Assembly (NCBI GenBank): GCA_016875095.1
Contig: VGSG01000036.1
Span: forward strand, 1-37,611
DNA: 37,611 nt
From: Deltaproteobacteria bacterium
GTDB taxonomy: Bacteria > Desulfobacterota > Desulfomonilia > Desulfomonilales > Desulfomonilaceae
Direction: 5' to 3'
Part shown: in pieces, positions 17,015 through 26,751 of the stretch
Position numbering within the stretch: the stretch's first letter is position 1
Layout: each line of letters starts with the position of its first letter
Notes under the pieces: generated by a model
Seen by the model: the letters and a program-made list of their open reading frames with translations, nothing else
Databases searched by the model: none
Told to the model about the DNA's origin: nothing
Program-made: the position numbers and the translations under genes

Positions 17015-18796
17015 ATGGTTGAGAAGGATCCATCGAAAATCGATCTCGATCTATCGGATTTGGCCCTTGAGCCCCGCCGCATCCCGAGCAGCCCCACTCC
17101 TACGGAAACAATCGATCTGGACAAACTCTTCGGCGGAGACGTCACGCAATCAGGCAGCTTCGATCTGCGGGGAGTCCAAGCTACTTCGCTGGAGAAGCTG
17201 CTCGACGCCCTGCCTACACGAACGCTCCTGGTGGAAAGCTCAGGTCGGGTCTTCTTTGCGAACGACGCATGGCGGCGGGCCGAAGAGCAAGAGGAAAAAC
17301 TGGAAGGCCGGCTACTCACTGATCTTTTTCCCTACCCTGCGTACGCGTCCAAGATCGAGGCCCTCCTCGATCAGGTTCTCGCGGAACGTTCACCCCAGGT
17401 CACCGAGGCGGTTGTCGTAGTCGGCGCGCAGAAGATCTGGGGGCGCGTCCACATGAGATCGATCAGATTGGCTCATCAAAGAGCCATACTGATCCTCATC
17501 GAGGACCTGACTCCGGAGAAGAGGCAGTTGCTCCTCCAGAAAAGGCACCAGAAGGAGCTGAAACAGACCCGTGATGATCTTCAGAAATGGGCTGTCCAGC
17601 GCGGAGAGGAGCTGGAAGCGGTAAGCGCCCGACTCAAAGATGAGGTAACCCAGCGTCAAACGACCCAGGAGGCCCTTCGGCAGAGCGACCTGCGGTATCG
17701 CAGTCTCATGGAGGACAGTTTCGACGGCGTTATCGTCCATAAGGGCGGCAAGATACTCTTCGCCAATTCCCGTCTCTACGAGATGCTGGGCTATCAACCG
17801 GGGGAGTTGGAGGGGGTTGAGCACTGGATGATCTGCCATTTTGATGACCAACTGACGGTGCGGCAGAGAGCCTTGGCCCGCCTCAGAGGAGAGGAGGTTC
17901 CGGTCAAGTACGATATCAGGCTTCAGCGTAAGGACGGATCAACTTTTGATGTGGAATTGCACGCCCGCACAGTAAGATTCGGCAATGATGCGGCCATCCA
18001 GGCTATCGTCAGAGACCCTGGGCGCCGAGAGCGTTCGCAAGATCACATGATCCGGACCGACCGTCTGAACATGATAACGGATATGGCTTCCGGAGCGGCT
18101 TACAGTTTCAGCGCTTTGCTCGATATGATCTTGAGAGGGGCGCAGGCGGCCCTAACTCATCTGGAAAGAGGAGAGCTACAGGAAGTAAAGGATATCCTCG
18201 GAGGAATCTCCGAGAGCGGCGACCGGGGAATGTCCGCAGTGAAGGGGCTTCAGCGCTTCGCTCGACTCCGAAGCGATCAGCCGGGTGAATCCTCCGAAGT
18301 CTTCGATATGTCGGAAATTGTTCAGCAGGCCATCGGTCTGTGCGAACCTTGGTGGCAGGCCGACCCGGTGAGGCAAGGGGCCACGATCCGTGTGCAGCAG
18401 GCCCTGGAACCGGGGTGCCTGGTGAAGGGGGCCGAAAGCGAACTCCTCGAAGTTGCGGTGAACCTGATCAAGAATGCGGCTGAGGCGATACTCGGCAGCG
18501 GAGAAATCAAGGTAAAGACGCACTGCGATAATGATAAGGTCATATTCCAGGTTGCGGACAACGGGGCCGGAATCGCCGCGGAAAACCTGGAGAAGGTTTT
18601 TCAGCCGTTTTGGACCACCAAGGGGCCGCGCGGCGTTGGAATGGGGCTCGCGACAAGTTTCGGTATAGTCAGAAAGCACCATGGAACGATTTCCGTCCAG
18701 AGCAGGGAGGGCAAAGGCTCCGTGTTCACGGTCGTCCTTCCTCTGGCCGAACAGAAGGTTGAAGCCGTGGATTCGGAGCGGGAGCCGCCTGGTTGA
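17015..18796 (+). CDS. PAS-domain histidine kinase-like protein lacking the phospho-acceptor His
   Basis: A 593-residue soluble sensor-kinase-like protein. An acidic N-terminus is followed by a PAS-like region (~58-165), a coiled coil (~165-222), a second PAS domain (~223-338, with G-V-I-V-H-K-G-G-K-I-L-F-A-N), a dimerisation-helix region (~345-420) and a HATPase domain (~470-578) with N-L-I-K-N-A-A-E (N483/N487), D-N-G-A-G-I (515-520), P-F-W-T-T-K and G-V-G-M-G-L-A. In the H-box, where the related kinase at 24070 reads G-G-V-A-H-D-F-N-N, this protein reads S-G-A-A-Y-S-F-S-A, so the His is Tyr363. The ATP-binding half looks intact. It may bind ATP and dimerise without autophosphorylating on His. 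No response regulator is adjacent, and it follows the pentapeptide gene by 13 nt. Confidence 0.87.
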   Translation: MVEKDPSKIDLDLSDLALEPRRIPSSPTPTETIDLDKLFGGDVTQSGSFDLRGVQATSLEKLLDALPTRTLLVESSGRVFFANDAWRRAEEQEEKLEGRLLTDLFPYPAYASKIEALLDQVLAERSPQVTEAVVVVGAQKIWGRVHMRSIRLAHQRAILILIEDLTPEKRQLLLQKRHQKELKQTRDDLQKWAVQRGEELEAVSARLKDEVTQRQTTQEALRQSDLRYRSLMEDSFDGVIVHKGGKILFANSRLYEMLGYQPGELEGVEHWMICHFDDQLTVRQRALARLRGEEVPVKYDIRLQRKDGSTFDVELHARTVRFGNDAAIQAIVRDPGRRERSQDHMIRTDRLNMITDMASGAAYSFSALLDMILRGAQAALTHLERGELQEVKDILGGISESGDRGMSAVKGLQRFARLRSDQPGESSEVFDMSEIVQQAIGLCEPWWQADPVRQGATIRVQQALEPGCLVKGAESELLEVAVNLIKNAAEAILGSGEIKVKTHCDNDKVIFQVADNGAGIAAENLEKVFQPFWTTKGPRGVGMGLATSFGIVRKHHGTISVQSREGKGSVFTVVLPLAEQKVEAVDSEREPPG

Positions 18797-19801: not shown

Positions 19802-21076
19802 TCAGAATTCTTGCCGACCGGCGTAAAGAACGAATCCTACCAGCGTCCAGATGTCGATCAGTTTTTTCCAGGAGGGATCTCCGGAGGAGAATGCTTGTAA
19901 GAACTCATCCATCGAGGAAAACCGTTCGGCCGGCTTGACCGACAGGGCCCGGTCGAGGGCCGCGGACATCTTCTTGGGCGCGTCGCTGCGGAGATTCCGA
20001 GCCGATTCCATGCGTCCCGTGGGCACATCGCCCGTGAGCATTTCGTACAGCATCACTGCGACCGAGTACTGATCGGCTCGATGGTCAAGGTCCTTGGAAC
20101 CCTTGAGTTGCTCGGGCGCCATGTAATACGCGGTGCCCGTTCCCGCCATGGTCATCGTGACGTGGTCGGAATCGAGCATCCTGGCGATACCGAAGTCCAT
20201 GAGCTTGACCGTTCCATCCTTGCACAGCCACACGTTCTCGGGCTTCACGTCTCGGTGCACACTGTACTGGTGGGCGTACACCAGGGCATCGCAAATGGAC
20301 TTGGCTACCTGCATAACTTCCGGGATACTGAAACGGGTCTTCTGTAGCCTTCGTTTCTTCAGTTCAGAGCGGAGCGAATGTCCTTCCAGCAGCTCCATGG
20401 CGAGGAAAAAGAAGGTTCCCTCTCTCTGAAGGTCAAACACATTCACGATATTGGGATGGCTCAGAGCCACGGAAATTTTCGCTTCCACAAGAAATCGCTC
20501 CCGAGCCACAGCGTTGTCCAAGAAGCGCGGGAGCAGGACCTTAATCGCTATTTGTTTGCCCAAGTTCCGATCGTACGCCCGATAGACCGCGCCCATGCCC
20601 CCGACGCCGAGCAGGTCGAGCACCTCGTACCGGTCCATAAGGACCTGCCCTATTTCCACCCGGTCCATGGCGGGCTTCGTCGAAAGTCGCGGGGCCGGAG
20701 CGGGCCGGTCGGCATCCAACCTCGTTTGTTCCCATGCCTGGGTGGGCTCTTCAGGAGGGGAAGGCCGTTGCTCGAGAGGCGGGGCCGGGGCCGGGCGAGA
20801 GACCGCGGCGATCGGCGAACTTTCTTGGAAAGGAGCTTCCTCCGTGAACGTCCGCTCCGACGGGACTCCCGGATGCCCATCCACCTGCAACGCGGCTCTT
20901 CGCAGAGCTTCCAGCGAGTCCAACTCTCGCCGGAGGCGGGTCTTGGCATCCTGCGCGGTCGCAGCCCGGAGTTCGTCCATCACCTTTTTCCGTCGCTCTT
21001 TGTACGCGGTCTCTATTCTCGAAGGGAGCGCGCCCGAGGCAAGTCCCAAGGCTTGAAGTGCTTCCTCTCTCGTCAT
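19802..21076 (-). CDS. Ser/Thr protein kinase (Hanks type) with J-like N-terminal domain
   Basis: A 424-residue kinase. Residues ~1-65 form a helical domain resembling a DnaJ fold (T-R-E-E-A-L-Q-A-L-G-L, I-E-T-A-Y-K-E-R-R-K, then a helix with L-R-R-E-L-D-S-L-E-A-L-R-R-A), without the HPD tripeptide. A Pro-rich linker (~67-135) follows. The kinase domain (~150-400) has G-V-G-G-M-G-A-V-Y (157-165), K179, E198, H-R-D-V-K-P-E-N (274-281), D-F-G (294-296) and A-P-E (320-322), so it looks active. A final hydrophobic stretch (~406-420) is short for a full membrane helix. ATG 21076 is chosen because GGAG lies 8 nt upstream; the frame is open to 21133. It is transcribed alone. Substrates are unknown. 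Confidence 0.9.
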   Translation of the reverse strand: MTREEALQALGLASGALPSRIETAYKERRKKVMDELRAATAQDAKTRLRRELDSLEALRRAALQVDGHPGVPSERTFTEEAPFQESSPIAAVSRPAPAPPLEQRPSPPEEPTQAWEQTRLDADRPAPAPRLSTKPAMDRVEIGQVLMDRYEVLDLLGVGGMGAVYRAYDRNLGKQIAIKVLLPRFLDNAVARERFLVEAKISVALSHPNIVNVFDLQREGTFFFLAMELLEGHSLRSELKKRRLQKTRFSIPEVMQVAKSICDALVYAHQYSVHRDVKPENVWLCKDGTVKLMDFGIARMLDSDHVTMTMAGTGTAYYMAPEQLKGSKDLDHRADQYSVAVMLYEMLTGDVPTGRMESARNLRSDAPKKMSAALDRALSVKPAERFSSMDEFLQAFSSGDPSWKKLIDIWTLVGFVLYAGRQEF

Positions 21077-21226
21077 CGCGAATTCTCCATGTCTCGCGAC
21101 CTGGGGAACAAAGCGTGCGGGGTGGACTACCACCCAATTACGGATACCCAGTCAAGGCTGCCGATATAGAATGCTGCGTTGAGATCTGCGCCTTTGGATA
21201 AAGCCGGAATCCCCCTCTCCCTTCCC

Positions 21227-21593: not shown

Positions 21594-23951
21594 ATGTCCA
21601 CGCGAAAGATAAGCGCAAAACAACTGGTCCACGACATCCGTTCGGGCATGGATGACGCGGGCCTGATGCTCAAGTACGGGATCACCGAACCGCAGCTCAG
21701 AGCTCTGCTTAGGAAGCTCGTGGGAATGGGCGCCGTGTCACAGGGCGAGGTCGATTCCCGTCCGTCGCTCAAACACGCGGTTCAAGCGACCGTAGCAATA
21801 GAACTGCTCGAGATCCCCGCGACACAGCTCCTCGATCCCTCCGCCGTGGGACCAGATCGGCGCGCCAAGGTCGAACCGGCCAAGGCTGAGGCGCCTCGAC
21901 CTGCGAAGGGAGCAAAACCCTCGAAAGCTCAACCGCTCGTTCTTCCGAAAGGACAACCGGAAGACCTTCCCCGGACGGAGCGCCCAAAGGAGTTTCACGG
22001 CAGACGATCGGGTAGGATTCTTAACTCGGCCATCGGCGCGCTCTGGTGTCTGGTCGCGTTGGCGCTGATCTACTATTATCCCGAGTTCCCCGAAACGCTC
22101 AACCTTATGATCTACGACGTAAAACTGAATCGTGTCCCGCCTCCGGCGTATCATCGTTCCATAGTGCATTTGGACGTGGATGACGAGGCCATCATGAAAT
22201 TCGGCCCCTGGCCCTGGGATCGCAGCCTGAGCGCCAGGATCGTGGACAAGCTCGCAGAGTTCGGGGCAACGGTGGTGGCCTTCGATATTCTGTTCTGCTC
22301 TCCCGGAAAAAGCCCCGAAGGGAACCAGGCCCTTTTCAAATCAATGAAAAAGGCCGGGAACGTGATTGCCGCCACGGGGCTCGGCATAACCTACGATCCG
22401 GCCGAAAAACTGACGGTGGATCAGAATTCCGATCGCGCCGAAGCGCTGTATGATAAGTCCTGGAAGCTGAGGCGCCCGGGGGCGGGTCTGCTCCCGCGAG
22501 TGGCGCGCTTGAAGGACTCGTACGTCCCACTGACCGGAATCATAATTGACGCCCAAGACGTCGGACATGTGAAGGTCAGCCCTGACCGAGACGGGATTCA
22601 TCGTAGAGCGCCGCTGCTGGTGAAGTTCGAGGACCGCTACATTCCGAGTCTGAGTTTAGCGATTCTCAAAGCGATGTGGAAGCTTGAGCCACAACGGATC
22701 GGTGTCACCGATGCGGGCGAAATCGTGCTTGACGACTCTTCCAAGCGCCCGCGGATCCCGCTTGATCCCAAGGGAATGATGCTGGTGCGCTGGGGGGACG
22801 CGTGGGAAGGTTTTCCTCACTATTCGGTTGTGGATCTGTTGGGAGATAAGCCCGATTCGTCACGGAAGTCCCGGTACGCGAACAAGGTCGTCATCGTGGG
22901 CTTCACAGCTACCGGCAACACGGATGTGGGCGTGACGCCGGTTTCGGTCGAGACGCCGCTGAGCCGAATTCATTCCCACACACTGAACACGGTTCTGAAC
23001 GAAGCTTTCATTGTCCAAATCCCCGCCATCCCCTGGGTGCTGGGCGGCGCCGTCTTGCTGACCGTGATCTTTTCAGTGACTGCGGCAAGGGTGCGCTGGA
23101 GAATCGGCGCCCTGGTAGCCGTGCTCATCTGTGCGCTTGCATTGGCCGCCGCTTCGTTTTGCTTTGTGCTCCAGGGCTGGGAAGTTCCGTTGGCTGAAGC
23201 GCTCATTATCTTCGTTCCCGCGGCGGCAATCTCATTGATAGCCCGCGCGGTCTCCATAGAAATGAAGGCTGCCAAGGCGGCGCGTGTCATGGAACGATAC
23301 CTGAACCCGAGACTGGTCACCAAGCTGTTGGAAGGCGGGAAAGAGCTGGACATTGCGGCGAAACGCAAGGAGCTGACCGTCGTGGTAGCTCACATCGAAG
23401 GCTTTGCAACCGTCGCGGAGACCGTGGATGTGGAGTATGTGCACCGTTTCATGAGCGATTTCCTTGAAGCCATGACAAGAGCGGTCTTTGCGCATGAGGG
23501 GACGATTGACAAATTCCTCGGGGGTGGCCTTCAGGCTTTCTTTGGGGAACCCATTGCCGTGGAGAACCATGCGGAGTCGGCCGTGCTGGCGGCCATGGAG
23601 ATGCAGCGCGAAATGATCAAGCTGAATCAAAGATACGCGAGCTCTGGGATCAACGGGTTCGCAAATGGAATCGAGATTCGCATCGGGATCAGCACGGGCC
23701 CGGTCGTGGTGGGCGATCTGGGCTCCCAACGGCGGGTGGAGTATACCGTGGTCGGGTCAACGGTTCAGGTGGCGGAGAGACTCCAGGCCATTGCCCCGGC
23801 TGGTGGGTTAATCATGAGCGCGAGAACCAGGAATCTTCTTCAACAAGAAGTGGAATGCGAAGGCCCCGACCGTGTGAGACTCAAGGGCTTTGACAGAGAT
23901 ATCGAAGTATACCGTATCTATCCGGACGCGATAAATCCCGAGGGGACGTGA
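21594..23951 (+). CDS. CHASE2-domain protein with degenerate class III nucleotide cyclase domain
   Basis: A 785-residue membrane receptor. Residues ~5-45 are a helical module shared with the pentapeptide protein at 16273 (A-K-Q-L-V-H-D-I-R-S-G, L-M-L-K-Y-G-I). An Ala/Pro/Lys-rich linker leads to a first membrane helix (~143-162), an extracytoplasmic CHASE2 sensor (~165-470; Y-D-V-K-L-N-R, W-P-W-D-R, A-F-D-I-L-F), three membrane helices (~478-550) and a cyclase-like domain (~592-775). In that domain the two metal-binding Asp of class III cyclases appear replaced: the first position reads V-V-A-H-I-E-G-F (H600) and the second F-L-G-G-G-L-Q-A-F-F-G (G644). The usual V-N-x-A-x-R-L reads V-Q-V-A-E-R-L. 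cAMP synthesis is therefore doubtful; it may bind a nucleotide or a partner instead. TGGAG precedes the ATG. Confidence 0.87.
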   Translation: MSTRKISAKQLVHDIRSGMDDAGLMLKYGITEPQLRALLRKLVGMGAVSQGEVDSRPSLKHAVQATVAIELLEIPATQLLDPSAVGPDRRAKVEPAKAEAPRPAKGAKPSKAQPLVLPKGQPEDLPRTERPKEFHGRRSGRILNSAIGALWCLVALALIYYYPEFPETLNLMIYDVKLNRVPPPAYHRSIVHLDVDDEAIMKFGPWPWDRSLSARIVDKLAEFGATVVAFDILFCSPGKSPEGNQALFKSMKKAGNVIAATGLGITYDPAEKLTVDQNSDRAEALYDKSWKLRRPGAGLLPRVARLKDSYVPLTGIIIDAQDVGHVKVSPDRDGIHRRAPLLVKFEDRYIPSLSLAILKAMWKLEPQRIGVTDAGEIVLDDSSKRPRIPLDPKGMMLVRWGDAWEGFPHYSVVDLLGDKPDSSRKSRYANKVVIVGFTATGNTDVGVTPVSVETPLSRIHSHTLNTVLNEAFIVQIPAIPWVLGGAVLLTVIFSVTAARVRWRIGALVAVLICALALAAASFCFVLQGWEVPLAEALIIFVPAAAISLIARAVSIEMKAAKAARVMERYLNPRLVTKLLEGGKELDIAAKRKELTVVVAHIEGFATVAETVDVEYVHRFMSDFLEAMTRAVFAHEGTIDKFLGGGLQAFFGEPIAVENHAESAVLAAMEMQREMIKLNQRYASSGINGFANGIEIRIGISTGPVVVGDLGSQRRVEYTVVGSTVQVAERLQAIAPAGGLIMSARTRNLLQQEVECEGPDRVRLKGFDRDIEVYRIYPDAINPEGT

Positions 23952-24069: not shown

Positions 24070-26751
24070 GTGACTGAAGAGCAGTATCCTGAAGCCTCGC
24101 TGGAGGGGCTCAGAGACACTCGGATGGTAGCGATAAGAGCCGGTCAGGTCGAGCAGCTCTATGCTCAGGCCCCGGCCGGCATGTACGCTGGTGCGATGGG
24201 CTCAATTATCCTTGTGGTCTCGCTCTGGTGGCAGATACCGCAATGGAAGTCGATCACGTGGCTCTCCCTGTCCCTGAGCGTGCTCACGCTGCGTCTACTC
24301 CTGGTGTGGAGGTATCGGAAAGAGAGGCCCCAGCCTGAGAAGGCGGGCAGGTGGAAGAACTTGTTCGTGCTCGGATCGGCCGCCTCGGGTTTTCTCTGGG
24401 GTTTCACGGCTATTTGGCTCTGGCCTCCGGACAGCGTTCCCCATCAGTGTGGTATAGCGGTATTTCTGGCTGCGGTGGCAGCCACGGCGGCCGCGAACTA
24501 TGCGCCCGTCAAAGAAGCGTACTTAAGCTCAATCCTCTTCGTTCTGCCGCCTCTCCTGGGTCGATTGGTCCTTTCGGGGTCCCCTGTCCTCATCATGCTG
24601 GGAGTGATCGGTGTAACGTACGTCCTTTTCCTCCTGAGGATAGGGTGGTCCACGCACAATCTCATAACGGAATCGATCCGTCTGAGACTGCGTAAGACGG
24701 AACTCATCGACTCGCTGAGGGCAGTGCGGGACCAACTGGAGCTGCGAGTTAAGCAGCGGACCGCCGAACTCCTCGAGGCCAACAGCCGACTCACAGAAGA
24801 GATGGCGGAGCGTCGCCGAGCGGAAGAAGCGGGGCTCCTGGAGAAACGGAAGTTTCAGAGCCTAGCGGATAATACTCCTCTCGGCATAGTCATGATGCGA
24901 CAGGACGGCGCGTTTCAATACATCAACCCCAAGTTCGTGGAATTGTTCGGGTATGAGCCGGAAGAAGTCCCCAATGGAAGGACGTGGCTTAGAAATGCTT
25001 ACCCGGATGATGCGTACCGTAAACAAGTTATCGGAGCATGGTTCGAAGACATGGAAAGATTTCCCATTGGGGAGAGCCGGCCCAGGACATACACCGTCAA
25101 GTGCAAGGACGGCTCCGATAAGATCATACATTTTAGATCCGTACAACTCCCGACCGGTGAGCATATCGTGGCGTGCGAAGACATCACCGTCAGCTACCAG
25201 TCGGAAGAGGAATTGCGCAGATCCGAGAAGAAATACCGGACTATCCTGGAAACTATAGCCGATGGCTACCACGAGGTGGATCTGGCGGGGAATCTGACCC
25301 TGGTCAACGATTCGCTCTGCGAGATCGTGGGAGCAAGCAGAGAAGAACTCATAGGGAGGAATTATCGAGATTTCGTGGTCGTGCCGGACGCCGCGGAGGT
25401 ATATTCCAGGTACAATGAAGTGTATCAAACCGGCCAACCCAACCAGGGCTTTTCGTTCGAAATCGTCCGAAAGGACGGGAAAAGATTGCATGTCTCGGCT
25501 TCCGTGGCTCTGATTCGGGACGAGGCGGGGAATCCGGCCGGCTTCCGAGGGATTTTTCGAGACATCACGGAACAGAGGCGGCTGGCGGAAAAGCTAACCC
25601 ACGCAACAAAAATGGAGGCCATCGGCACACTCGCGGGTGGTGTGGCTCACGACTTCAACAATCTGCTCACTGCCGTGCAAGGGTATGCGGATATCCTGAG
25701 GCGGCAAATGCCCAGTGACAGCCCTTTTATTGAAAAACTGACCCAGATCGGTCGAGCCGCCGAGAGAGCCGCGGGTTTGACTCGGCAGCTCCTGGCGTTC
25801 GGCCGCAAGCAAGTGCTCAACGTGAGCGCGCTGAACCTGAACGACGTTATCGCCGATCTGGAGGAGATGCTCAGGAGGCTGATCGGCGAAGACATTGAAT
25901 TGAACACGGTCTTGACCCCCTCTCTCGGAACGGTCAAAGCGGATGCGGGCCAGATCGAACAGATACTCATGAACCTCGTCGTCAACGCTCGGGACGCGAT
26001 GCCCAAAGGAGGGAAGCTGACCATCGAGACCGCCAACGTGGTCTTGGATCGGCAGTATACGGAGAAGGTTCCCGACTTGGAGCCGGGGCCCTACATCATG
26101 TTTGCCGTGAGCGATAGCGGCGCGGGAATGGATGAGCAGACCCGCTCCCGTATCTTCGATCCCTTCTTTACCACCAAGGATAAGGGGGTGGGCACCGGGC
26201 TCGGTCTTTCCACGGTCTATGGGATCGTGAAGCAGCATCGGGGTCACATCGCCGTGTATACCGAATTGCGACGCGGTTCCACCTTCAAGGTCTACCTCCC
26301 CCTGGAAGAGGCTGAGTCGGTCGAACAGTTGATGAAACCACGACCTGAAGCGCATTCCGCCGGGACCGAAACCGTTCTCGTGGTAGAGGACGAGAAGATT
26401 GTTCGAGATCTGGTCTCAGAAGCGCTCACAATGCTCGGTTACTCGGTCCTGCCGGCTTCAGATCCTGACGAGGCGGTGGCTCTGAGCGCCAATCACACCG
26501 GCCCGATCCATCTGCTCGTAACGGACGTGGTCCTGCCCAAGATGGATGGTAAGTCGCTGTGCAGCTACCTATCGCTGACTCGCCCGGAGATGAAAGTCCT
26601 TTACATATCGGGCTACACGGAGAATTTCATTGTGCATCGAGGAGTCTTGGATCAAGGTGTGCATTTTATGCAGAAACCCTTCACGATCGATGATCTGGCT
26701 GCAAGAGTGAGAGAAGTTCTCGATGATCCCGTGGCGCGGAGAGAGATTTGA
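24070..26751 (+). CDS. membrane hybrid histidine kinase (PAS-PAS-HisKA-HATPase-REC)
   Basis: An 893-residue hybrid sensor kinase. About six hydrophobic segments lie between residues 38 and 190, then a coiled coil (~205-260), two PAS domains (~260-378 and ~385-502), HisKA with [11 protein letters not shown] (H527), HATPase (N-box [10 protein letters not shown] 634-643, D-S-G-A-G-M 682-687, G-V-G-T-G-L-G-L) and a C-terminal receiver (~766-885) with E773/D774, phospho-acceptor D819 in V-T-D-V-V-L-P and K869. All catalytic residues are in place, in contrast to the kinase-like protein at 17015. AAGGAG precedes the GTG start at 24070. Downstream phosphotransfer partners are not encoded nearby. It converges with the ferredoxin gene (34-nt gap). 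Confidence 0.92.

Follow-up and report, generated by a model that had tools for sequence, protein, structure and literature searches.

In Sinorhizobium meliloti, the CHASE2 cyclases CyaD1, CyaD2 and CyaK are reported to respond to a plant protein by making cAMP (PMC13001267). CHASE2 cyclases are known as a kind; judged from its sequence, what is new in the gene described here is the loss of catalytic residues and the addition of an N-terminal module. The gene lies in a stretch of 37,611 nucleotides, the whole of which we call the window. The first-pass annotation had singled out positions 23376–23798, which correspond to residues 595–735 of the 785-residue open reading frame at 21594–23951 on the plus strand. 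The gene and its features are as follows.

21594–23951 (+): whole gene, 785 amino acids, consisting of an N-terminal module, a linker, a transmembrane (TM) helix, a CHASE2 domain, TM segments and a degenerate class III cyclase domain (open reading frame, translation and Pfam)
21606–21761 (+): N-terminal helical module, residues 5–56, a lineage-specific repeated domain (genome matches, profile and AlphaFold2)
22011–22088 (+): hydrophobic segment, predicted TM helix preceding CHASE2, residues 140–165 (Kyte–Doolittle scan)
22053–23060 (+): CHASE2 domain, residues 154–489, predicted to lie outside the cytoplasm (Pfam PF05226, E = 1.5e-44)
23001–23264 (+): hydrophobic region of about three TM helices following CHASE2, residues 470–557 (Kyte–Doolittle scan)
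23364–23912 (+): degenerate class III cyclase domain, residues 591–773 (Pfam PF00211, Guanylate_cyc, E = 1.5e-17; phmmer match to CyaB, PDB entry 3r5g)
23391–23393 (+): His600 (CAC), metal site 1 (alignment with seven homologues; CyaB)
23511–23513 (+): Lys640 (AAA), purine-site Lys, kept (alignment with seven homologues)
23523–23525 (+): Gly644 (GGT), metal site 2 (alignment with seven homologues; CyaB)
23766–23768 (+): Gln725 (CAG), position of the transition-state Asn (alignment with seven homologues; CyaB)
23778–23780 (+): Arg729 (AGA), transition-state Arg, kept (alignment with seven homologues)

Both parts of the protein that had been recognized earlier, a CHASE2 receptor and a class III cyclase domain, are recovered by Pfam, with 153 bits against a cut-off of 26.3 for PF05226 over residues 154–489 and 64.3 bits against a cut-off of 21.9 for PF00211 over residues 591–773. 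The receptor half is complete, as had been stated: CHASE2 is flanked by membrane segments and is as conserved as in its relatives. With a 19-residue mean above 1.5 as the Kyte–Doolittle criterion for TM helices, hydrophobic segments are found at residues 140–165 and 470–557, which most likely places the N-terminus as well as the cyclase domain in the cytoplasm. The third-position G+C content of the gene is 0.69 and lies within the range of 0.64–0.76 given by eight further long genes in the window. On the 5' side the neighbouring gene, on the opposite strand, encodes a Ser/Thr kinase (19802–21133), and 118 bases beyond the 3' end lies the gene of a PAS hybrid histidine kinase (24070–26751) with matching HisKA, HATPase and receiver domains and a normal H-box, GGVAHDFNN. 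About 2.8 kb upstream, a PAS-HATPase kinase (17015–18796, +) has the H-box GAAYSFSALL, with Tyr in place of His, and gives no HisKA match by Pfam. This kinase is likely to be a pseudo-histidine kinase, in line with the earlier remark that one occurs in the same stretch.

Using class III structures as a guide, we take the columns of His600, Lys640, Gly644, Ser722, Gln725 and Arg729 to be those of metal site 1, the purine Lys, metal site 2, the second purine site, the transition-state Asn and the transition-state Arg, respectively. The seven nearest full-length homologues among the matches listed are 44–51% identical to the window protein over about 640 residues. Six of them (L011–L016) come from other genomes of the family and one, at locus L003 on contig C64, is encoded in the window's own genome; all seven read D/K/D/S/N/R in the six columns. 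Among solved structures, the best sequence match to the domain is CyaB (PDB entry 3r5g; phmmer E = 2.7e-33, residues 7–194 of the 203 queried), which, unlike the window protein, keeps Asp, Asp and Asn at the two metal sites and the transition-state position. The replacement of both metal-binding Asp residues by His600 and Gly644 and of the transition-state Asn by Gln725, which had been read from the gene alone, is thereby borne out, as is the retention of Lys640 before the second metal site and of Arg729. Ser722 is also retained in the window protein. Of the residues that mark an active enzyme, the two metal-binding Asp are therefore absent, the transition-state pair is incomplete (the Arg is present, the Asn is not) and the purine-specifying Lys is present. 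Conservation of His600 and Gly644 among homologues, which had been proposed as a check, is not found: none of the seven carries either residue and all have Asp at both sites.

An alignment shift that restores acidic residues at both metal sites, a possibility raised at the outset, is ruled out, because no gap occurs near the sites in the eight sequences and CyaB places Asp, Asp and Asn opposite His600, Gly644 and Gln725. A sequencing or frame error is unlikely, with 785 codons open and 14 otherwise invariant sites differing. Since all seven close homologues keep the two metal ligands and the transition-state Asn that the window protein has lost, the alignment gives good support to the view that the cyclase domain would be unable to act as an ordinary homodimeric cyclase. 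The gene product most likely passes its signal on by something other than a cyclic nucleotide. A single-sequence AlphaFold2 prediction of the cyclase domain gave an unusable model (mean pLDDT 35.2).

The loss of catalytic residues appears to be specific to this gene. No closer copy of the window protein is present among the matches listed from all 18 family genomes examined, and a pseudo-cyclase shared by the whole family is ruled out by the seven canonical close homologues. The same genome has nine Guanylate_cyc matches among those listed, and all eight besides the window gene have Asp, Asp and Asn. Among the matches listed, which were mostly the best rows of score-ranked lists and are therefore biased towards relatives of the window protein, with much more decayed cyclases missed, 163 of 166 near-complete cyclase domains have both Asp residues, two lack the second only and the window protein alone lacks both; the transition-state Asn is found in 164 of the 166. 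These domains derive from 198 hits, 170 of them distinct, minus four fragments that cover 42–122 of 193 columns, and two wrong-strand reading frames (L023 and L034) were excluded from the profile behind the search. All of this concerns a single gene, from a single genome that is split into 202 contigs.

Some partial departures were seen elsewhere. Two other cyclase domains of the family, in L223 and L230, have only the second metal Asp replaced, by Glu and Ala, respectively, and that in L223 also lacks the Asn and the Arg. A fragmentary cyclase-like reading frame in L022/L090, close to another gene, contains the motif VQLAARL, with Gln in the place of the transition-state Asn, and the Asn-to-Gln change thus occurs elsewhere too.

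In the phylogeny, the window gene groups with L011, with ultrafast bootstrap values of 99% for the full protein, 94% for the cyclase domain and 83% for CHASE2. L011, the nearest homologue, comes from a different genus within the family; it has D/D/N and carries no module. The simplest history would be that the module was gained and catalysis was lost on the window gene's own branch; the order of these two events cannot be told from one sequence. The paralogue on contig C64 is 49% identical to the window protein (61% in the cyclase domain) and has D/K/D/S/N/R. Within 10 kb, its locus (L068:5142–14975) contains genes for a Ser/Thr kinase with a cyclic-nucleotide-binding domain, a PP2C-type phosphatase and a DUF4384 protein, and from this gene content it looks like a cAMP-to-phosphorylation unit. 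A short CHASE2 fragment of 162 amino acids is also found there (L068:7051–7539). By eye, the window shows no evident neighbours in common with the 20-kb surroundings of L011 or of the C64 paralogue.

As the same genome encodes a canonical paralogue whose metal ligands are intact, the window protein can be seen as a C2-like partner, which would either form one composite catalytic site together with the active paralogue or silence the latter by occupying it. In the composite site the metal-binding Asp residues would be supplied by the paralogue, while Lys640, Ser722 and Arg729, the C2-side residues that have been retained, would be supplied by the window protein. According to a review (PMC8815786), class III heterodimers are common and many of them complement missing catalytic residues, and the paralogue is encoded about 6 kb from the kinase with the cyclic-nucleotide-binding domain. 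The C2 side should, however, retain the transition-state Asn, where the window protein has Gln725, although the Gln in the L022/L090 fragment indicates that this residue is no proof of a dead enzyme. The two genes also sit on different contigs, and the drift of other conserved cyclase residues described below is unexpected for an active half-site. We consider a partnership of this kind unlikely.

The drift was assessed with a leave-one-out count over the eight proteins, in which sites are scored that are invariant in the other seven but changed in one. In CHASE2 the window protein is changed at four of 62 otherwise invariant sites (homologues 0–8 of 58–66), and in the cyclase domain at 14 of 72 (homologues 0–6 of 58–64). 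Fisher tests, which are descriptive here as related sequences are treated as independent and the protein was picked beforehand for its odd residues, give p = 0.04 for the two domains of the window protein, p = 2e-5 for its cyclase domain against the seven homologues pooled (17 of 423) and p = 8e-4 when the catalytic sites, three in number, are left out of this comparison (11 of 69 against 17 of 402). The ratio of the tip branches for the cyclase domain and CHASE2 on a fixed tree is 0.68 for the window protein and 0.31–0.43 for the seven homologues. Similar or higher ratios are found for two CHASE2 cyclases that are more distantly related and read canonical D/D/N (L005, 0.88; L078, 0.65), so that a high ratio alone is no proof of loss. 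By the site counts, the whole cyclase domain appears to be loosened, active site included, and the receptor does not.

Such loosening could reflect plain decay, where the cyclase domain drifts without function and the gene is heading for loss or is kept for its receptor half alone. New residues are found in the window cyclase domain at 19% of the otherwise invariant sites, nearly as often as at the variable ones (21%), compared with 0–9% and 10–20%, respectively, in the seven homologues. Nor are the catalytic sites clearly singled out, with three of six changed against 11 of 66 elsewhere (p = 0.08, no significant over-representation). Decay is more difficult to reconcile with a frame that is open over 785 codons, with a CHASE2 domain constrained as in its relatives and with non-catalytic changes that are mostly mild (for example F598V, S605A, L620M, V638I, D652E and V763L). 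The cyclase domain moreover scores 68.4 bits in a scan of its own genome, above two canonical domains encoded there (57.6 and 52.2 bits), and we give decay a low probability.

It had also been proposed that the cyclase fold serves as a nucleotide sensor or a protein-interaction output, and this may be so. As the main function of the protein, however, a pocket that binds nucleotide without metal and reports it is very improbable: Lys640, Ser722 and Arg729 are kept, but conserved residues beside the first metal site have been lost (F598V, S605A and S608A, with N708D later in the domain), and drift across the domain beyond the active site speaks against a nucleotide sensor that is sharply conserved.

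As the new output of the window protein, the N-terminal module is a more plausible candidate than the cyclase fold in either of these roles. With its residues 1–75 as the query, 25 matches are obtained in the protein's own genome at E-values up to 0.001 (copies L042–L066), and a second count including neighbouring copies gives 26 distinct reading frames. A profile built from own and related copies, the window copy itself among them, matches residues 5–56 with an E-value of 1.8e-25. Using a related copy as the query, 2–71 module matches are found in nine of the 18 family genomes and eight of the 11 genera, and the two named loci that share the module are from Desulfomonile and Desulfomonilaceae metagenome assemblies. 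None of the seven close homologues of the window protein has the module, and among 42 module and 196 cyclase reading frames in the loci examined the two domains occur together in the window protein only. Other copies precede PQQ-type β-propellers, pentapeptide repeats, a protein kinase domain, DUF4388, the start of an AbiEii-like nucleotidyltransferase and weak zinc ribbons; further contexts are a weak PilZ match (below its cut-off) and, by eye, ankyrin-like repeats. For the window copy, Pfam gives no match at E-values up to 10 (HMMER filters on), and no NCBIfam match at E-values up to 1 falls in the module stretch of the window protein.

AlphaFold2 with a nine-row alignment predicts a short helical bundle for the module (mean pLDDT 80.7), with helices at residues 8–16, 21–28, 32–45, 50–54 and 57–63. 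In a Foldseek search of the PDB most of the top rows are helix-turn-helix (HTH) proteins, these matches being weak (best E-value 1.0). A second fold comparison gives Z-scores of up to 5.6 (SelB, CheF and Lrp-type regulators), in a range below 8 that may reflect a common arrangement only. These comparisons weakly suggest that the predicted fold is HTH-like. With 19.4 bits, short of the cut-off of 25.6, the copy at L055:1141–1893 weakly resembles the dimerisation domain of O-methyltransferases, which hints at a possible role of the module in protein–protein contacts.

Our preferred reading, which we put forward tentatively, is that the window protein, a CHASE2 receptor, derives from an active CHASE2 cyclase of the adenylate type, has ceased to make a cyclic nucleotide as a homodimer and has moved its output to the N-terminal module. 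This reading draws on the retention of the receptor, the loss of catalysis, the higher divergence of the cyclase domain and the absence of the module from relatives. CHASE2 would sense something outside the cytoplasm, the change would travel through the TM helices, and the cyclase fold would now be mainly a dimerising and transmitting element. The cytoplasmic HTH-like module could then bind DNA at the membrane or, just as possibly, dock another protein. Docking fits better with the occurrence of module copies on β-propellers, pentapeptide repeats, a kinase and zinc-ribbon-like proteins together with the resemblance to a dimerisation domain. That the protein is a receptor cyclase turned round, its C-terminal enzyme lost and its present role that of a membrane-anchored regulator signalling via a clade-specific N-terminal HTH-like module, is doubtful; if true, this role would fall to a module that is joined to dozens of unrelated proteins in the lineage and is absent from public family libraries.

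If pseudo-enzymes were well supported among the receptor cyclases of bacteria, they would demonstrate that the output of a CHASE2 receptor can switch while the sensor is kept. The change of output is directly testable here, because the genome also encodes the active 49%-identical paralogue and a relative with an intact active site is available from a sister genus. The module offers a second opening: it is small, one genome alone has 25 matches to it, and copies occur in nine of the 18 family genomes. Across 198 sampled genomes of the phylum, which include one other family genome only and where a single-sequence query at an E-value of 1e-6 can miss distant copies, matches at E-values up to 1e-6 are confined to the window's own genome.

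No relevant report of a bacterial pseudo-cyclase was found among open-access papers, a scope that does not imply that none has been published. Like CyaD1, CyaD2 and CyaK of S. meliloti, the window protein joins a class III cyclase domain to a CHASE2 receptor; unlike them, it lacks both metal-binding Asp residues and the transition-state Asn and has an added N-terminal module. In having a cyclase fold without metal ligands of its own, it resembles the C2 halves of mammalian membrane adenylate cyclases and of other heterodimeric class III cyclases. The C2 half of the mammalian membrane enzymes keeps the transition-state Asn. The window protein differs from C2 halves in having Gln725 at this position, and its partner is only a candidate. 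Regulators of the ToxR/CadC type consist of an N-terminal DNA-binding HTH domain, a single TM helix and a C-terminus outside the cytoplasm. The window protein may be similar to these in its probably cytoplasmic N-terminal domain, for which an HTH-like fold is weakly predicted, followed by a TM helix and a sensor domain predicted to lie outside, and differs from them in about three further TM segments and a C-terminal domain that is most likely returned to the cytoplasm.
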